From Clostridia bacterium (GTDB lineage Bacteria > Bacillota > Clostridia > Oscillospirales > CAG-272), in assembly GCA_017472255.1 (NCBI GenBank), contig JAFUQU010000011.1, positions 186,001-250,000 on the forward strand: DNA of 64,000 nucleotides. The letters are read 5' to 3'. Below the pieces are notes generated by a model. That model was not told the origin of the DNA. It was given only the letters and a program-made list of their open reading frames with translations, and did not search any database. This document shows positions 52,755 through 62,231 of this stretch, in pieces. The position numbers and the translations under genes were made by a program. Numbering within the stretch: the stretch's first letter is position 1; every line of letters begins with the position of its first letter.

Positions 52755-54950
52755 TTAAACCTTCAGCGCGTCGCTGCCATCGCACGCAAACAGCGCCACG
52801 GGATTCTTCGGAATGGAGAAGAAAACCTTGTCGCCCGCCGCGCAGCGGACGTTCAGGAAGCGGTCGTCGTTCTCCTTCGGATGAACGCGGACGAGCCATG
52901 TGCGGCTTTCCGGCTTGCCGTTGTAATCGCCGACCCGCTCGCCGATGTTGATATCCACGCTTTCCTCGCCCTCGTGAACGGTGATTTCCGTATGGCAGGA
53001 GGTGTTCGTCTGGTAATCCAGCGACACGCCGTCGTCCTCGCGCAGAATGTAGGACGAATCGCCGTCAGGCCAGATATCCAGCGTCAGCGTGGAATCGTCG
53101 TATTCCGCCATATACTTCCGATCGCGCCAGCCGGGGATGATTGCGCCGCCCTTGATGAACAGACCGCCGCCCCGTCCTTCGGGGGGATTGTAGGGATTGA
53201 TGTCGCAGGGGCCGGCGTATTCCTCGCCCGTCCATCCATCAATCCAGCGTCCGGCGGGAAGATGCACGCTGTCCGCGTAAGCGGAAACCAGCAGGGAATC
53301 GCCGATCATATACTGGCGGGAAGCGTCCATGGTCGCTTCATCCTCCGGGAACGCCAGCGGCATGGGACGGACGATGGGCATGGCTTCCTCGTGACCCTCC
53401 AGGGCGGCGGAATAATAGTAGGGCAGGATGCGATAGCGGATTCGGGCGTACTCGACGAACATTTTGTGCATATCATCGCCCGCGTACCAGGGCTGCTCCA
53501 CGCCGTGCCATGCGTTCAGGTGCGCCCACGGCACGAACATACCAAAGTGAATGCTCTCGGGATGGTGGATGTTCATATCGATGGTGGTGTTCATATGCCC
53601 GGACAGCGCCAGCGTCTCCAGCCAGATCATCGCGCCCAGCTCGCCGCCGTTATCGCCGGTGGTGGAAGCGCTCCAGTGCTGGATGCCGGTGTATCCGCCG
53701 GAATAATGGTGCATGGAGCGTTTGTTCGTCTGCGCTTCAAAGCCCTCCTTCACCTGCTTGGTCAGCAGAATCTGGTTGTAGTTGTGCATCTGCATGGAGG
53801 TCAAACCGTTGAACAGGCGGGGGCGGTTCATGCGGTCGAAGCAGCATACCATGTCGGCGGGATCAAGCTTGTAGCCGTCCACGCCGATGTAGGTGAACTT
53901 TTTCAGGTGCTCGTACCAGCCTTCGCCGTAGTCCTCAACCGAACCGTCCGCCAGCTCGCGTTCGGCTTCGGCGGTCAGGTCATAGCGGATGCAGCGCCAG
54001 AGGGAGAGCTTGAGGTTCATTCGGTGGAGCGCCGACACGAAGGTGATGGGATTGTTGGGGCTGGTCATATGATAGTCGCAGATATGGAAGCGCTTGGTGT
54101 CCCATTGGGGGGCGGTGGAATAATCGTAGAATTTTTCCATCCAGCCCGGCTCCAGCGAAATCATATCCACGGGAATGCTTTCTTTACGGAAGCGTTCGGC
54201 GTCGGCGAGCACCTCCATCTGGTCGGAGAAGATGGGGGCGATGTAGGTTAAGCCATACGCCCATTTGGGCATAACCATGGGATTGCCGGTCAGCGTTGTG
54301 TAGGCTTTCAGCACGCCCTGATAGCTGCCGCCCCAAAGGATGAACAGGTCAAGCTCGTCGTCCTCGCCAAGGCAGATCAGCTGATCGCTCACCCGTCCGC
54401 CGATGTCCATGAAGCTGCGGCTGCGGGCGTTGAGAAAAATGCCCCAGCCCGAGGAACTGATAACCAGCGGAATCGGGATTTCGTTGTACTGGTAGCGCAC
54501 CCAGTTCTGATAGGCGCGTCCGCGCAGCTGGATGCGGTCGTTGGCGCCCTCGCCCAGACCGTAGAAGCGTTCGCCCTCGCCGATGCCGAAGTAAATGGCG
54601 TAAGCGGCTTCGGGGGGCAGGGTTTCGACGGGGATGGGGGAAGGCTTCTGCGCCTCCTCGGGGGTGCCGATGATGGCCTGATAATCGGTGTACTTCTCCT
54701 TGAATTCCTCGACCAGACTGTCGTGGAGCGCCTGATATTCCTCGGTTTCGTCGGTGACGATGCGGAAGGGAAGCAGACGTCCGTCGGGAAGGGTGACGGT
54801 GTCGTCGGAATACGTAATGCCGCTATCGGACAGCGTTTGGGGCAGGGTGATAATGCCATAGCGCTCGGCGAGGGTTTCGGCGTGCAGCTCGGAGAGCCTG
54901 ATGCGCAGAATGCCGGGGGCGATGTGGGTGAATTGAAGCGTTCTTGCCAT
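52755..54950 (-). CDS. GH31 family alpha-glycosidase
   Basis: A 731-residue cytoplasmic enzyme. The N-terminal sandwich contains FYGLGEGANDRIQLRGR near residue 129; the TIM barrel carries the nucleophile Asp363 in GYKLDPAD and the acid/base Asp433 in TTGDNGGE; then IRYRILPYYYS and LPAGRWIDGWTGEEY mark the C-terminal domains. GH31 includes alpha-glucosidases and alpha-xylosidases; specificity is not clear. No signal peptide. Divergent from an unknown gene at 55119. Confidence 0.93.
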   Translation of the reverse strand: MARTLQFTHIAPGILRIRLSELHAETLAERYGIITLPQTLSDSGITYSDDTVTLPDGRLLPFRIVTDETEEYQALHDSLVEEFKEKYTDYQAIIGTPEEAQKPSPIPVETLPPEAAYAIYFGIGEGERFYGLGEGANDRIQLRGRAYQNWVRYQYNEIPIPLVISSSGWGIFLNARSRSFMDIGGRVSDQLICLGEDDELDLFILWGGSYQGVLKAYTTLTGNPMVMPKWAYGLTYIAPIFSDQMEVLADAERFRKESIPVDMISLEPGWMEKFYDYSTAPQWDTKRFHICDYHMTSPNNPITFVSALHRMNLKLSLWRCIRYDLTAEAERELADGSVEDYGEGWYEHLKKFTYIGVDGYKLDPADMVCCFDRMNRPRLFNGLTSMQMHNYNQILLTKQVKEGFEAQTNKRSMHHYSGGYTGIQHWSASTTGDNGGELGAMIWLETLALSGHMNTTIDMNIHHPESIHFGMFVPWAHLNAWHGVEQPWYAGDDMHKMFVEYARIRYRILPYYYSAALEGHEEAMPIVRPMPLAFPEDEATMDASRQYMIGDSLLVSAYADSVHLPAGRWIDGWTGEEYAGPCDINPYNPPEGRGGGLFIKGGAIIPGWRDRKYMAEYDDSTLTLDIWPDGDSSYILREDDGVSLDYQTNTSCHTEITVHEGEESVDINIGERVGDYNGKPESRTWLVRVHPKENDDRFLNVRCAAGDKVFFSIPKNPVALFACDGSDALKV

Positions 54951-55071: not shown

Positions 55072-55100
55072 TTGACAGCGTCGGCGGATTGGGGTATAAT
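55072..55100 (+). promoter_or_regulatory. Promoter of the first unknown paralogue
   Basis: TTGACA (55072-55077), 17 bases, TATAAT (55095-55100). The transcript should start near 55107, only about 12 bases before the first ATG. Confidence 0.8.
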
Positions 55101-55118
55101 TGTATCATATTATAATAT

Positions 55119-56933
55119 ATGAAAGCAGGGATTCCTATCAAAACGAACAATCCGAACATTGAACTGGCCGCACTGACATCGGACATTGTGCTGGGAGAGG
55201 ATGACGGTCTCTGGTACGACACGGGCAGCGGGAAGATTGCCTACGAAGACACGATCTGCGTGCAGGGGAGCACTTCCGTGGCGGGAGTGCGGGTGACGGG
55301 CGGCAGTCATAAGCTGCTGTTCAACGACAGCGAGGACGTCGGCTGCTGCGCCGAAATCTGCCTGAGCAAGCCGGTATTCGATATCGCGGCGGGGGCTTCG
55401 CTGACGATCGTGCCCGGATACTGGGGCGGAACCGCTTCCAACTGCATTGGTCCCATCAAATCGGGCGAGGGGAAGCTGATCTTCGGCGAGCCGCTGTTTG
55501 TCGGCAGCAGCTTGGAGGAGAAGTGTACCTTCGATCTGCGCTGTGGCGGCGATACGCCCATGACCATGCCCGACGCCGATGATCGCTGGTATCGGCGCTG
55601 GTGCAATTACGAGCGGGTGCTGACCGTGGGCAGCGGTCGGATTGTGATTGGGGAAACCTGCTGGCTGACGGCCGCCGACCGTTCGGCATGGGCGCATTTT
55701 GACAAGGACAGCGGGCGGCTGACCCTTCACGGAGCGTTTGCCGCCGATGAGCTGGAGGTGGCGAAGGACGCTCTGCGGGATGAGCCTCGGGGAATCGAAG
55801 AAAGCCTGTCGTCCCGGGCAGCGCTTCCCACCCGTCTGCTGACGGTGGACGAGCGGATGGGCAGCCTGAACGGACGGGTGGTCAACACCGCATGGCTGTC
55901 CGAAAGCCGGGATGAGGAAGCCGGGCGGGATTTGAAGACGCTGCATCTAACGGGGAACGCCATTCTGTACGGGAACTGCCAGCCCGACCGGGTGGAGTTT
56001 GACGGCTGCGAATCGCTGGATATTCCCCAGGGCGTGACGCTGGATCTGTCGCTGCTTGACGGGATTCCGCCTCTCGCGGGCTGCCAGGTCAAGGGCACGC
56101 TCCTTCTGCCCGAAGCCGATGCCGGGCTTGGGCAGGAAATGCTGGCGGACGGCAGAATCCGCCCGGTCTATCGGGGCGTGGTGCGCATCGGAAAGCAGTC
56201 CTTCCGCGCCGAAGCCAAGCTGGATTTTTCCAAGCCCGACACCCCCGCCGAGGGAGAGGGCTACCGTTGGATTGCCTTCTCAAAAACGCTGGTGCTTACC
56301 AATTTTGTCTGCGAATGCGAGACCGACTGCATCCGTCTGCCCTCGCGTTCCGTCATCGAGCTGCACGGCGTGAACCGCATCACCGTCACCGGCTATAAGA
56401 GCCGTACCATCGCGGCAGGCGATCAGCCGAGGAATTTCCGCGGTATGCTGATCGTCACGGGCGACGGCAGGCTGACGCTGAACGGCGCGCTGCGTGTGGG
56501 CAACAACGATTTGATCATCCGTGGCGGCGGCATCGATCTGAACGGAAGACTGAAAACCGATTCGGTCACGCTGTCCGGAGGTAAGCTGACCTGCCGGAAA
56601 AAGACCGAGCTGGGGCAGCTGGAGCTGTGCGGCGGCGAATTCATGAGCGAGGGACAGTTCGAAATCGGCAAGCTGATTATGTCGCGCGGGCAGTTCTCCT
56701 ACGAATCGGAGACCCGGGTGATAACGACGCTTGGAACGGCGGTGGAATACCGTCCGATGAACAGTTTCCGCGAATTCCCGACGCTGACGACCCGCTGCAA
56801 GGAGGTACACGGGTACACGCTTCGGAGAAGCGAATACAACGGAAGCTACATATACACGACCAATGTAGATGATCAGAAGGAGTACGCGGATCAGAACGAC
56901 TACGCGCCATCCGTGAAAATCGTCGTGAAGTGA
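55119..56933 (+). CDS. Unknown protein, first of two paralogues; beta-solenoid-like
   Basis: A 604-residue soluble protein that I do not recognise. No signal peptide or membrane segment. The C-terminal third alternates short Gly- and polar-rich beta strands (RLTLNGALRVGNNDLIIRGG, then GGKLTC, GGEFMS), which suggests a beta-helix. The middle contains conserved RCGGDTPM, GETCWL and SKPDTPAEGEGYRWIAF. The paralogue at 59357-61102 aligns along the whole length. The ATG at 55119 has no ribosome binding site and lies about 12 bases from the transcription start. An alternative is ATC at 55137 behind GCAGGG, matching the paralogue. It sits among GH31, GH28 and AraC genes, so a carbohydrate-linked role is plausible but unproven. 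Confidence 0.75.
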   Translation: MKAGIPIKTNNPNIELAALTSDIVLGEDDGLWYDTGSGKIAYEDTICVQGSTSVAGVRVTGGSHKLLFNDSEDVGCCAEICLSKPVFDIAAGASLTIVPGYWGGTASNCIGPIKSGEGKLIFGEPLFVGSSLEEKCTFDLRCGGDTPMTMPDADDRWYRRWCNYERVLTVGSGRIVIGETCWLTAADRSAWAHFDKDSGRLTLHGAFAADELEVAKDALRDEPRGIEESLSSRAALPTRLLTVDERMGSLNGRVVNTAWLSESRDEEAGRDLKTLHLTGNAILYGNCQPDRVEFDGCESLDIPQGVTLDLSLLDGIPPLAGCQVKGTLLLPEADAGLGQEMLADGRIRPVYRGVVRIGKQSFRAEAKLDFSKPDTPAEGEGYRWIAFSKTLVLTNFVCECETDCIRLPSRSVIELHGVNRITVTGYKSRTIAAGDQPRNFRGMLIVTGDGRLTLNGALRVGNNDLIIRGGGIDLNGRLKTDSVTLSGGKLTCRKKTELGQLELCGGEFMSEGQFEIGKLIMSRGQFSYESETRVITTLGTAVEYRPMNSFREFPTLTTRCKEVHGYTLRRSEYNGSYIYTTNVDDQKEYADQNDYAPSVKIVVK

Positions 56934-56935
56934 TC

Positions 56936-57748
56936 TCAATCCTGCCGGAATCTGCTGGGCGCGCAGCCGGTTTCGCGCTTGAAGAATCGGGAAAAATAGT
57001 TGGAATCGCGGAAGCCGCAGGCTTCCGCGATTTCGCTTATCGTCAGGGAAGTGTTGCGCAGATGTTCTTTGGCGGCTTCAACGCGGCAGGCGTTCAGATA
57101 GTGGATGGGCGTGATGCCGGTTTCCCGCAGAAAAAGGCGGCAGAGGTAGCGTTCGCTGAGCCGGACGGCACGGGCGGCATCGCTGACGGTGACGCCTTCG
57201 GACAGGTTCAGGCGTAAAAAATCCATGGCCTGTCGGACATAGCCCGCCGGACTTTTGTCCGCCGCGCGAGTTTGAGGAAGCAGGGCGAGAAGCATATACA
57301 GCAGCCCCGTCTGACGCAGAGAAGCGGAGGCTTCGTCCTGTTCGTCATAGACGGCGGCGTGAAGCAATGGCAGCAACGGGGAAGGGTCGATGCCGGAAAA
57401 GCGGTCGGTGTTGGCGAAGGTGTAATCCGCGATCAGACCGGACGCCTCGCTTCCGCCGAATTCGACCCAATACTGCTCAAAGGGCTTGTCCGGCAGGATT
57501 TCAAGCCGGTGCGCCAGCATAGGGCGCATGAGAAAGGCGTCCCCCGCCGACACGGGCTGGCCGTTGTGCAGCGCCTGTCCGCCGAGAACCATGTGCAGCA
57601 CGTATTCCCCACGCACCATGGTTGGGGAGATGTAGCCGGGCTGAGCGATGCCGTGGCTGATGGAGCGCACGTACAGCCCCGCCGACGGACGAACCTGGGT
57701 GAAAAAGGTGTGGATGACGGAACCGGCGCGCATTTGCTTGAAAAACAT
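56936..57748 (-). CDS. AraC family transcriptional regulator
   Basis: A 270-residue regulator. Residues 20-130 are a cupin sensor (GEYVLHMVLGGQAL, then AGDAFLMRPMLAHRL); residues 170-268 are the AraC domain (AARAVRLSERYLCRLFLRETGITP and IAEACGFRDSNYFSRFFKRETGCAPSRFR). The ATG at 57748 has AGGAGGAA 4 bases upstream. The leader contains a hairpin element and a second ribosome binding site (57761-57846). Likely regulator of the GH28 gene and flanking unknown paralogues. Confidence 0.92.
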   Translation of the reverse strand: MFFKQMRAGSVIHTFFTQVRPSAGLYVRSISHGIAQPGYISPTMVRGEYVLHMVLGGQALHNGQPVSAGDAFLMRPMLAHRLEILPDKPFEQYWVEFGGSEASGLIADYTFANTDRFSGIDPSPLLPLLHAAVYDEQDEASASLRQTGLLYMLLALLPQTRAADKSPAGYVRQAMDFLRLNLSEGVTVSDAARAVRLSERYLCRLFLRETGITPIHYLNACRVEAAKEHLRNTSLTISEIAEACGFRDSNYFSRFFKRETGCAPSRFRQD

Positions 57749-57760
57749 ACTTCCTCCTGC

Positions 57761-57835
57761 ATGTCATTAACTTAAGAGAACGGGGAGGGTTTTTTTTCAA
57801 AAAAGTTTCCCCCCCACGGCTTAAGTTAATGACAT
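57761..57835 (-). repeat. Nested inverted-repeat element in the AraC leader
   Basis: Perfect 16-base inverted repeats (57761-57776 and 57820-57835) enclose a second GC-rich hairpin (57783-57817). Nine-base direct repeats TTCCTCCTG flank it (57751-57759 and 57838-57846); on the minus strand both are AGGAGGAA-type ribosome binding sites. The outer site precedes ATG TCA TTA ACT TAA inside the repeat. The inner core recurs at 22096-22131. It looks like a small non-autonomous insertion or a leader control element. Confidence 0.6.
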
Positions 57836-57864
57836 TGTTCCTCCTGAGCGGATTTTTTTATTCC

Positions 57865-57893
57865 ATGATACATCAAAAAACGTAAAAAGTCAA
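57865..57893 (-). promoter_or_regulatory. Promoter of the AraC gene
   Basis: On the minus strand TTGACT (57893-57888), 17 bases, TATCAT (57870-57865). The transcript would start near 57858 and include the hairpin element. Confidence 0.65.
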
Positions 57894-57937
57894 GATGTTG
57901 GCGTAAATATTTCATGGACTTGGGGGCGGTGGTGTGC

Positions 57938-57966
57938 TATAATACTGATAACGGAACAAGTTCCGT
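57938..57966 (+). promoter_or_regulatory. GH28 promoter -10 box and perfect palindrome
   Basis: TATAAT at 57938-57943 is followed by a perfect 16-base palindrome, ACGGAACAAGTTCCGT without its AA centre symmetric (57951-57966), right at the predicted transcription start, then GGAGG at 57977. A repressor or regulator site is plausible. Confidence 0.6.
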
Positions 57967-57989
57967 ATTACATTCTGGAGGAACGAATT

Positions 57990-59231
57990 ATGTTAAACTG
58001 TGATATTCGCGAATTCGGCGCGGTGGGAGACGGCGTAACCCTCTGCACCGAGAGCATTCAGTCGGCCATCGACGCCTGCGGAGCGGCGGGCGGCGGACGT
58101 GTAACCATCGCCGGGGGACGCTATCTGTCCGCGCGCATCGATCTGCGTTCGGGCGTGGAGCTGCACATCGACGTGGACGGCGTGCTGCTGGCCACCACCG
58201 ACGGCTCGGCGTTCAAAGAGATCGAAACCGATTTCTGGATTACCGACATGGCGCCCCGACGCAACAAAAAATGCTTCATCTACGCCGAGGGCTGCCACGA
58301 CATCGCCATCACTGGGCGGGGCATGATCGACTGCCAGGGACGCTTCGCCGTGGAAAAAGTTCCGGAGGGCGACCCGTCGGGCTTCGTGTGGGGCTATCGG
58401 CGGAAGGTGTTCGATCTGCCCGCGCGGATGATTCTCTTTATGGGCTGCAAGGACGTGATCTGCGAGGACGTGCTGCTTTATGAGCCTTGCTCGGGCTGGG
58501 GCTACTGGGTCTGTGACTGCGACCGCGTGACCATGCGCGGTCTGCGGGTGGAATCGGATCCGGGTTATCCCAACGCCGACGGCATCCACGTGAACTGTTC
58601 CCGGGACGTGCGCATCTCCGACTGCACGATTCAGGCGGGGGACGACGCCATTGTCGTGCGGGCGTACACCGGCGTACTCCATAAGAAAACGCCCTGTGAG
58701 CGGGTGCTTGTTACCAACTGCAACCTGTCCAGTATGTGCAGCTGCATCCGGGTGGCGTGGGTCAACGACTGGATTATCCGGGACTGCGTGTTCTCCAACC
58801 TGACCTTCCACGACTGCAACACGGGCGTGGGAATGACCATTCCCACCGTCAACGAAAAAACGCACTACACCGACGACGGCGGCGATTTTACGTTGGTGGA
58901 GCGGCTGACCTTCTCGAACATCACCACGGTGCGCTGCTATCACGAACCGCTGATTATCACGCTGATGCCCGGCTGTCAGGTGGAAGCCATCCGCGACATC
59001 CGCTTTTCGGGCATTCTGTCGGAATGCGGCTATCTGCCTGGCTTCGTTGGACGGGCCGACGCGCCGCTGGAGCGGATCAGCTTCTCCGACTGCGACTTCC
59101 GCGTGGTGGATTATCACGGCGAAGGTCCCAGCCGCTCGTCGAATATGCGCCGGGGCAGCGCCACCGAGCCGCGCTTCGAATACTGCCGCGACCTGCGCAT
59201 GAACAACACGTCGTTCACGTCGCTGTGTTAA
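57990..59231 (+). CDS. GH28-like (polygalacturonase-fold) glycosidase
   Basis: A 413-residue right-handed beta-helix protein. The GH28 opening is FGAVGDGVTLCTESIQSAIDAC (residues 9-30), and two of the catalytic elements are present: NADGIH at 195-200 and AGDDAIVV at 216-223. The usual Gly-His-Gly motif is replaced by SSMCSCIRV, and the later RIK is not obvious, so the active site differs from classical polygalacturonase. No signal peptide. It is preceded by GGAGG and flanked by AraC and the unknown paralogue pair. Confidence 0.85.
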   Translation: MLNCDIREFGAVGDGVTLCTESIQSAIDACGAAGGGRVTIAGGRYLSARIDLRSGVELHIDVDGVLLATTDGSAFKEIETDFWITDMAPRRNKKCFIYAEGCHDIAITGRGMIDCQGRFAVEKVPEGDPSGFVWGYRRKVFDLPARMILFMGCKDVICEDVLLYEPCSGWGYWVCDCDRVTMRGLRVESDPGYPNADGIHVNCSRDVRISDCTIQAGDDAIVVRAYTGVLHKKTPCERVLVTNCNLSSMCSCIRVAWVNDWIIRDCVFSNLTFHDCNTGVGMTIPTVNEKTHYTDDGGDFTLVERLTFSNITTVRCYHEPLIITLMPGCQVEAIRDIRFSGILSECGYLPGFVGRADAPLERISFSDCDFRVVDYHGEGPSRSSNMRRGSATEPRFEYCRDLRMNNTSFTSLC

Positions 59232-59246
59232 GGATTATTTACGCAA

Positions 59247-59283
59247 AGAGTGTCTGCACGGCTGTGCAGACACTCTTTTTTCG
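59247..59283 (+). terminator. Terminator of the GH28 gene
   Basis: Perfect 13-bp stem (59247-59259 with 59264-59276) and TTTTTTC tail. Confidence 0.9.
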
Positions 59284-59292
59284 CCGAAGGTC

Positions 59293-59321
59293 TTGACATC
59301 AGCCGTACAATCATGTATAAT
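59293..59321 (+). promoter_or_regulatory. Promoter of the second unknown paralogue
   Basis: TTGACA (59293-59298), 17 bases, TATAAT (59316-59321), the same layout as before the first paralogue. Confidence 0.8.
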
Positions 59322-59356
59322 TTTATCATAATTAATATAAAAGGCAGGGGATTTTT

Positions 59357-61102
59357 ATCGAAACGACATATCCGACCATTGAACTGAGCACGCTGACGGG
59401 GGACATTGTGCTGGGGCAGGACGACGAACTGTGGTACGACGCGGGAAGCGGCAGAACGCCCTACGAAGGCGTTCTGTGCGTGCAGGGAATCACCACCACG
59501 TCGGGCGTCCGCGTCACGGGCGGCGATCACAAACTGTTGTACGCCGATACGGAGGATCGACATCATGAGGTTCAGATCTGCCTAAGCAGACCGGTTTTCG
59601 ACATCGCTGCGGGGGCTTCGCTGACGGTGCAGCCCGGACGCTTCGGCGGAACCGCATCCAACTGCATCGGTTCCATTCAAACCGGCGAGGGAAAGCTGAT
59701 CTTCGGCGAACTGCATTCCGGCGAACTCAAGGAAAAATTCAACATCCGCTGCGGCGGCGAAACGCCCCTGAATGTGCCCGACGCCGACGATGACCTGTAC
59801 GAGCGTTACTACAATTACCAGCCCGTGCTGAACTGTGACGAACGGGTGGAAATCTGTGAAACCTGCTGGCTGGTGGCTTCCGACCGCTCGGCGTGGGCGT
59901 ATTATGATTTCGACACCGCGACCCTCACTTACCACGGCGAGCTGAACGTTCCCGAGCTGCTTGTGACAAAGTACGCGCTGCGCGAACGGGAACCGGAGAA
60001 ACGCCCGATTTACTACATATCCAGCGCCAACGCGGCGGATCACCTGCTGACGGTGGATTCCAGCATGGGACAACTGAAGGGCAGACTGCTGAACAGCGCG
60101 TGGCTCAGCGATTCGCGGGATGCGTCGTCGGAAAGGGATGTGCGCACCCTCCATCTGTCGGGGGATGCTTACATCGCCGAAAACTGCAAGCCCGACCGGG
60201 TGGAAATGGACGGCTGTACTTCCATCTATATTCCCGAACGGGTGACTTTCGACCTGTCCGGGCTTGATAAGCTCCCGTCGATTGCCCACTGTGAGGTGAA
60301 CGGCGTTCTGGTGCTGCCCGAGTCCGCATTTGAAACCGTCAATTCGCTTCTGTCCGACGGCAGCATCCATCCGTATTACCGGGGCGTGGTGCGCGTCGGT
60401 AAGAACCACCTTTTCCGCGCCCAGGCGAAGCTGGACTTTTCCAAGCCCGATACCCCCGCCGAGGGAGAGGGCTATCGTTGGATTGCCTTCACCAAAACGC
60501 TGGTGCTCACCGATTTTGTCTGCGAATGTGCCGACGACTGCATCCGCCTGCCTTCCCGCTCTACCGTGGAGCTGCACGGAAAGAGCAGCATCACCGTCAC
60601 CGGAAAAAAGAGCCGCGCCATCGCCGTGGGCGATCAGCCCAGAAACATCCGCGGTATGCTGATTTTCACCGGGGACGGCAGTCTGACGCTGAACGGCAGG
60701 CTGCGGGTCGGCAACAACGACTTGTTCATCCGGGGCGGCGAAATTGACCTGAACAGCCGGATAAAGACCGATTCCATCACCCTGTCCGGCGGACGCCTGA
60801 CCTGCCGGCAGGAAGCGGAGATCAGCTTCATCGAGCTGTGCGGCGGAGAATTCATGGGCTATGGAAAGCTGACCATCGGCGGATTGACCATGTCCCGGGG
60901 CGTGTTTGCCTACGAATCGGATGGCTGGCAGCTCAATGAATTCCACTCGCGCCCCACGCTCAGCACCCGCTGCACAGAGGTGAACGGATGCACCTGCGTG
61001 CGGGAAAAAGGCGGCAGGGATAACGTCTTCTCCATCGACGGCAGACCGTTTCATGTGACGAACGGCAACTACGCCCGTCAGGTGAAGATTATTGCGAAAT
61101 GA
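59357..61102 (+). CDS. Unknown protein, second of two paralogues; apparent non-AUG start
   Basis: About 581 residues, aligned throughout with the protein of 55119-56933 and equally unrecognised. Shared stretches include DIVLGxDD, VRVTGG, KLIFGE, GGTASNCIG, RCGGxTP, AKLDFSKPDTPAEGEGYRWIAF, GDQPRN and the Gly-rich repeat end. Similarity starts at ETTYPTIELSTLTGDIVLG, upstream of the first possible standard start (GTG at 59408), yet no ATG, GTG or TTG lies between the in-frame TAA at about 59330 and that point. An ATC at 59357 (or ATT at 59351) follows AGGCAGGGG and is the likely start; the GTG would cut conserved residues. No signal peptide. Followed by an acyltransferase gene 16 bases on. Confidence 0.72.
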   Translation: METTYPTIELSTLTGDIVLGQDDELWYDAGSGRTPYEGVLCVQGITTTSGVRVTGGDHKLLYADTEDRHHEVQICLSRPVFDIAAGASLTVQPGRFGGTASNCIGSIQTGEGKLIFGELHSGELKEKFNIRCGGETPLNVPDADDDLYERYYNYQPVLNCDERVEICETCWLVASDRSAWAYYDFDTATLTYHGELNVPELLVTKYALREREPEKRPIYYISSANAADHLLTVDSSMGQLKGRLLNSAWLSDSRDASSERDVRTLHLSGDAYIAENCKPDRVEMDGCTSIYIPERVTFDLSGLDKLPSIAHCEVNGVLVLPESAFETVNSLLSDGSIHPYYRGVVRVGKNHLFRAQAKLDFSKPDTPAEGEGYRWIAFTKTLVLTDFVCECADDCIRLPSRSTVELHGKSSITVTGKKSRAIAVGDQPRNIRGMLIFTGDGSLTLNGRLRVGNNDLFIRGGEIDLNSRIKTDSITLSGGRLTCRQEAEISFIELCGGEFMGYGKLTIGGLTMSRGVFAYESDGWQLNEFHSRPTLSTRCTEVNGCTCVREKGGRDNVFSIDGRPFHVTNGNYARQVKIIAK

Positions 61103-61118: not shown

Positions 61119-62231
61119 ATGAACGCTGAAACGAAAGCCTGCGCACCGCTGAGGGAAACCGACGTTTTTTCGCTGGTTTCAAAGCATCGGAGCGCCATTA
61201 TGGGCATCGCCGCGCTCTGGATTCTGGTTTTCCACGAATGGATTCCGCTGCTGGGAGGCGTACCCGGTCTCGGACGGATTGAGAGCTTCGCCAAGCAGGT
61301 GGGCTTTTGCGGCGTGGACATTTTCCTGTTCCTGTCGGGCATCGGACTGACCTACTCCATCGGAAAATCCAGCCTGCCCGCCTTCTATTACCGACGCATC
61401 CGGCGGATTGCGCTGTCCTTCCTCATTGTCGCCGTCCACCGCTGCATCGACGAGGGCTGGGACATTGCCCGCTTCGTCGGCAACGTCACCGGCTGGAATT
61501 TCTGGACGAAGGACATCTACTCCTTTCTCTGGTTCGTTCCGGCGGTGACGGCGCTCTACCTGCTGTTCCCGCTGTACTGGCGGTTCTTCTCCCGATCGAA
61601 GAATCAGCTGCTTTTCACGGTGGGGGCGCTGGAGGTCTGGCTGCTTTTGTCGCTGTCCATGCAAAGCGTCATCCGCTACGAGATGTACGGCTTCACCAAC
61701 CGCATCCCGGTCTTTCTGCTGGGCATCTACGCCGGATGGCTGGCGCAGAATAAGCAGGAGCGGCATGAGAAAATTACCTTCGGGCGGGTTTATTGGAGCT
61801 TCGCGGGAATTACGCTGGCGCTGGGAGCATATCTCGCCTATCAGACCAACTATAACGGGCTGTTCGTGCTGGTGCCTGCGTCCAACTGCTGCATCCCCAA
61901 TCTGCTAATCGCCGTGTCGATGACCTTCATTCTAGCGGCGCTGCTGGAGCTTCTGAACCGGGGCGTCGTGAAGCCGGTGGGGAAGGTTCTGTCGGCTGTG
62001 CTGGCGTTTTACGGGGGCTTCAGCCTGGAACTGTACTTCGTGCAGGAGTGGCTGCATAAGGTGATTTATCTGCGCGTCGAGGGCGTATGGCATCCGGCGC
62101 TGGTTAATCTGGCGATGATCGCCGCCGCCACGGTATGCGGCTGGGTCGTCTGTCAGGCGGCGAAGCTTGTCTGGAAGCTGGTGGATAAGCTGACGGCAGC
62201 GAGGAACTTAAAAGAAAAAACCGCAGGATAA
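61119..62231 (+). CDS. Acyltransferase family 3 membrane protein
   Basis: A 370-residue integral membrane protein with about ten segments. GIAALWILVFHEW near residue 30 carries the probable catalytic His of the OafA/YrhL-like family, and FLFLSGIGLTY followed by the basic FYYRRIRRI (near 74-98) is typical. Such enzymes acylate cell-surface glycans or small sugars. GGAGG precedes the ATG. It belongs to the transcript of the upstream unknown gene. Confidence 0.87.
   Translation: MNAETKACAPLRETDVFSLVSKHRSAIMGIAALWILVFHEWIPLLGGVPGLGRIESFAKQVGFCGVDIFLFLSGIGLTYSIGKSSLPAFYYRRIRRIALSFLIVAVHRCIDEGWDIARFVGNVTGWNFWTKDIYSFLWFVPAVTALYLLFPLYWRFFSRSKNQLLFTVGALEVWLLLSLSMQSVIRYEMYGFTNRIPVFLLGIYAGWLAQNKQERHEKITFGRVYWSFAGITLALGAYLAYQTNYNGLFVLVPASNCCIPNLLIAVSMTFILAALLELLNRGVVKPVGKVLSAVLAFYGGFSLELYFVQEWLHKVIYLRVEGVWHPALVNLAMIAAATVCGWVVCQAAKLVWKLVDKLTAARNLKEKTAG

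Follow-up and report, generated by a model that had tools for sequence, protein, structure and literature searches.

The gene pair and its neighbourhood

The window, a stretch of 64,000 nucleotides from a contig of a Clostridia bacterium, contains two paralogous genes on the plus strand, gene 1 at 55119..56933 and gene 2 at 59357..61102. Translation predicts a product of 604 aa for gene 1 when counted from an ATG and of 598 aa when counted from an ATC; the product of gene 2 is 581 aa long from an ATC or 564 aa long from a GTG at 59408. The two products are 58% identical, and their alignment runs over the full length of approximately 600 residues with few gaps. A preliminary description of this DNA had placed a pair of paralogous proteins of about this size at these positions and had listed conserved blocks, including GGTASNCIG and GDQPRN, all of which we found in both proteins. 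Its open reading frame coordinates hold, except that position 59357 is not a start of the usual kind, the codon there being ATC. A Nei-Gojobori codon comparison of the two genes gave a dN of 0.33 and a dS of 0.88 (dN/dS about 0.37). From these values gene 1 and gene 2 look like maintained genes, which indicates that both paralogues have been kept under purifying selection.

The preliminary description also named AraC, GH28-like and divergent GH31 neighbours, and Pfam matches back each of them. Between the paralogues lie a gene for an AraC-family regulator (56936..57748, minus strand; HTH_18 and AraC_binding) and one for a GH28-like enzyme (57990..59231, plus strand; GH28, 6.7e-11) that has no signal peptide and is similar to solved exo-galacturonosidases. 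The GH31 glycosidase gene (52755..54950, minus strand) is divergent from gene 1. Located 16 bp behind gene 2 is a gene predicted by Pfam to encode an acyltransferase-3 membrane protein (61119..62231, plus strand), which is likely to be on one transcript with gene 2. A gene for a sugar-isomerase-like TIM barrel (Pfam) also adjoins the locus. The GH28-like protein keeps a NAD and a GDD block; the usual GHG block seems to be missing, with SSMCS in its place, and cysteine makes up 6% of the protein.

Promoters and candidate start codons

Each paralogue is preceded by an exact match to TTGACA-N17-TATAAT, at 55072..55100 for gene 1 and 59293..59321 for gene 2, both on the plus strand, so the earlier report of consensus promoters with the same layout is borne out. 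We rejected the idea that this layout is special to the pair, since the window contains seven perfect promoters of this form, five of them elsewhere (shuffled sequence contains none). In a pairwise DNA alignment the similarity between gene 1 and gene 2 starts at the -35 box, as if promoter and gene had been duplicated together as one cassette. A longer -10 region is common to gene 1 and gene 2 alone, with no other match in the genome at up to one mismatch, and common descent would explain this. A terminator-like hairpin with a T run (59245..59284, plus strand) lies after the GH28-like gene and before the gene 2 promoter, formed by a perfect 15-nt inverted repeat (59245-59278). Because the promoters are separate and this hairpin appears to close the GH28-like gene before gene 2, co-regulation of the paralogues with GH28 and GH31 is not established. 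The proposal that they are regulated with the glycosidases is thus unproven; a congener also has the GH31-AraC-GH28 genes without them.

Two other repeats lie in the AraC-GH28 intergenic region. At 57761-57835 two 37-nt arms, separated by 1 nt, form an imperfect inverted repeat, the outer 16 bp of which are perfectly paired and adjoin the Shine-Dalgarno sequence of AraC. The near-palindrome ACGGAACAAGTTCCGT (57951-57966) is just downstream of the -10 box of the GH28-like gene and looks like an operator.

In gene 2 the first in-frame ATG, GTG or TTG is the GTG at 59408, which is codon 18 and lies 17 codons into the region of similarity. An ATC is found at the same aligned place in both genes, at 55137 in gene 1 and 59357 in gene 2, and each is six bases behind a Shine-Dalgarno-like GCAGGG(G)A. 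The candidate start of gene 1 (55124..55139, plus strand) has GCAGGGA, with an anti-Shine-Dalgarno duplex of -10.2 kcal/mol, and that of gene 2 (59342..59359, plus strand) has AGGCAGGGGA, with a duplex of -9.9 kcal/mol. These values of approximately -10 kcal/mol, calculated with an assumed 16S tail, equal those of ordinary genes in the window, and 4.5% of the ATC sites in the window have equally good pairing. Initiation at ATC is possible in both genes. In gene 1, the ATG at 55119 is disfavoured as a start; it has no Shine-Dalgarno match (duplex +0.8 kcal/mol), and the frame of its spacing to the conserved ATC is not the same in the two copies.

The segment between ATC and GTG encodes a sequence like that of the secreted clostridial protein L009 (TIELSTLTGDI in the segment, TIDLATLTQDI in L009), which favours translation of this segment. 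By contrast, its 12 base differences between the paralogues are distributed 5, 4 and 3 over the three codon positions, versus 9, 8 and 18 in the next 43 codons, and this lack of third-position bias means that a start at GTG (55188 in gene 1, 59408 in gene 2) stays a live alternative. We tentatively consider, at somewhat worse than even odds, that an AUC start predates the duplication and has been retained ever since, downstream of a strong promoter and Shine-Dalgarno site, with discrimination by IF3 setting a low or conditional protein level. The sigR gene of Streptomyces has a GTC start codon that is repressed by IF3, a non-canonical start with regulatory meaning (PMC5472188). Initiation here would be of the same kind if ATC were the start; sigR differs in its codon and in the type of gene, and the ATC in the window is a candidate start only. 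If it is used, it would be a conserved non-canonical initiation site beyond the few known regulatory genes, and gene finders would place the start of gene 2 wrongly.

Two modules related to surface beta-helix proteins

Alignment of a profile of the two products with three clostridial proteins that have a signal peptide and a C-terminal membrane anchor (L004, L005 and L007) gave an hhalign probability of 95.9% (E 5e-9), and two of these anchored relatives exceed the Pfam cut-off for the Cthe_2159 family. The similarity identifies a C-terminal module in gene 1 (56211..56708, plus strand; residues 365-530) that is predicted to be a Cthe_2159-like beta-helix and that also matches the secreted protein L008 (BLASTP E 4e-10). 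With the relatives included, the profile of this module has a sole match among all PDB sequences, Cthe_2159 (4peu; E 5.4e-7), which is carried largely by those relatives; the gene 1 product alone has no PDB match. The earlier statement that the pair matches no family was thus too strong. Cthe_2159 is a binder of cellulose and polygalacturonic acid (PMC6712302). Through the anchored relatives the C-terminal module appears to belong to the same homology group as the Cthe_2159 family (PF14262; PDB 4peu, 4phb), with which it is predicted to have the beta-helix in common. The window proteins differ from that family in having no signal peptide, in having additional N-terminal and middle regions, and in being below the Pfam cut-off (25.8 bits; the gene 2 product reaches 11.9 bits and the gene 1 product is not listed). 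A classical Cthe_2159 protein is encoded elsewhere in the same genome (contig 37, positions 535-2463 of locus L040), with a lipoprotein-like leader, a Pfam E of 1.9e-80 and a Gly/Met-rich tail.

Other families were not matched. The filamentous haemagglutinin repeat PF05594 gave 14.7 and 14.1 bits for the two proteins, below its cut-off of 21.5 bits, and no bactofilin family was among the Pfam and NCBIfam matches up to an E of 10, a search whose filters drop weak matches. The PHROGs and PADLOC collections gave no match for the paralogues.

The N-terminal module of gene 1 (55158..55538, plus strand; residues 14-140) resembles the mature start of L009, a secreted protein of 1618 residues (profile E 8.8e-6, BLASTP 2e-6), and the alignment begins directly behind the L009 signal peptide. 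L008, L009 and L034 are secreted clostridial multi-module proteins containing a 'GYxW...KTLTL...LPSGATVxLxGTNxI' module, and the N-terminal module of the window proteins is like L009 as the C-terminal module is like L008. Whereas these proteins have signal peptides and further surface modules, those in the window consist of the beta-helix-type parts only.

AlphaFold models, which had only the two sequences as input, were weak (mean pLDDT 44 for the whole protein and 59 for the C-terminal half). The core of the C-half model is a beta-helix, and its best aligned chain is the C-terminal domain of tapirin (PDB 6n2b; Z 15.7, rmsd 2.2 over 145 residues, at a model pLDDT of 59), a protein with which the window proteins have no sequence match. 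Tapirins are described as surface proteins through which cells adhere to lignocellulose (PMC9933333). The C-half model also aligns with Pel3 (Z 9.8). Foldseek listed Cthe_2159 for the full model at a probability of 0.77 and a non-significant E of 0.55, and for the C-half model it gave no match with an E below 0.9.

Origin, location and proposed role

The source genome carries two copies of the gene and no more. No full-length relative turned up in approximately 1,140 genome searches (59 genomes of relatives, 295 of the family, 394 of the order and 391 of the class, partly overlapping), and scans of phages, plasmids and of GTDB and viral contigs gave none either. In a congener (G001, contig 70), GH31 and AraC genes are on the minus strand, 4 bp apart, followed by a GH28 gene on the plus strand; its AraC and GH28 proteins are 45% and 69% identical to those of the window. 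Both paralogues are absent from this site. The genes on either side of gene 1 adjoin each other in the congener, and gene 2 comes after GH28, so that the paralogues look like lineage-specific additions, with the limit that a single congener site cannot fully separate insertion from loss. A search of five congeners found no gene corresponding to the acyltransferase-3 gene of the window, which may have arrived together with gene 2. A foreign origin is unsupported by composition, as the GC and GC3 of gene 1 and gene 2 equal those of their neighbours.

The absence of signal peptides, already proposed in the preliminary description, holds up. In-frame TAA codons upstream of the coding regions, at 55113 in gene 1 and 59333 in gene 2, rule out an upstream signal peptide in either protein. 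Neither has a strongly hydrophobic N-terminal stretch or a membrane segment, and each contains 18 cysteines versus 0-12 in the relatives. The lack of an export signal and of a membrane segment, together with the cysteine content, argues for a cytoplasmic location. We considered whether the proteins could nonetheless be surface adhesins or polysaccharide binders that are released non-classically or by lysis and bind the plant cell wall as their relatives do. Every relative found is secreted or anchored and the fold matches are to tapirin and Cthe_2159, but the upstream stops, the missing membrane segment and the high cysteine content speak against this, and we regard it as unlikely, at about one chance in five.

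Slightly less probable still is that these are fragments of surface-protein genes, either decaying or domesticated, which have lost the signal peptide and retain little or no function. This would fit with the lack of a usual start codon at the homologous place in gene 2 and with the occurrence of the paralogues in one genome only, among the genomes searched. However, both frames keep approximately 600 open codons, the consensus promoters and Shine-Dalgarno-like sites are intact, and the dN/dS ratio is that of constrained genes. The least probable of the alternatives is that they are cytoplasmic beta-helix enzymes working alongside GH28 on sugars derived from pectin, as a lyase, hydrolase or epimerase, since despite the glycosidase neighbours and the pectate-lyase fold in common with Pel3, neither Pfam nor NCBIfam places the paralogues in GH28 or in a pectate lyase or epimerase family (the neighbour at 57990 matches GH28 clearly) and the closest relative to have been described, Cthe_2159, is known as a binder.

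We favour the reading that these are cytoplasmic, non-catalytic beta-helix proteins that bind acidic oligosaccharides and derive from surface proteins, with a probability of roughly 0.45. The binding properties of Cthe_2159 and the leaderless, exo-galacturonosidase-like character of the neighbouring GH28 point to it. Each gene would encode a chain of right-handed beta-helix modules, kin of the secreted or anchored Cthe_2159-like carbohydrate-binding proteins of clostridia, that lacks a signal peptide, an anchor and any further surface module. The mature portion of a surface protein of this type probably gave rise to the ancestor; the ancestral gene with its promoter would have come to the GH31-AraC-GH28 cluster in this lineage and then duplicated. 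The proteins would stay in the cytoplasm and may bind the pectin or uronate fragments that intracellular GH28 and GH31 process. Of the earlier suggestion of a cytoplasmic beta-solenoid scaffold that binds or modifies sugars, the binding part is consistent with leaderless, cysteine-rich proteins that are distant kin of Cthe_2159, and the modifying part found no support. A seemingly family-less pair of proteins can thus turn out to be a branch of the surface carbohydrate-binding beta-helix proteins that apparently resides in the cytoplasm and, if the proposed function is correct, a surface glycan-binding module has been recruited into the cell interior.
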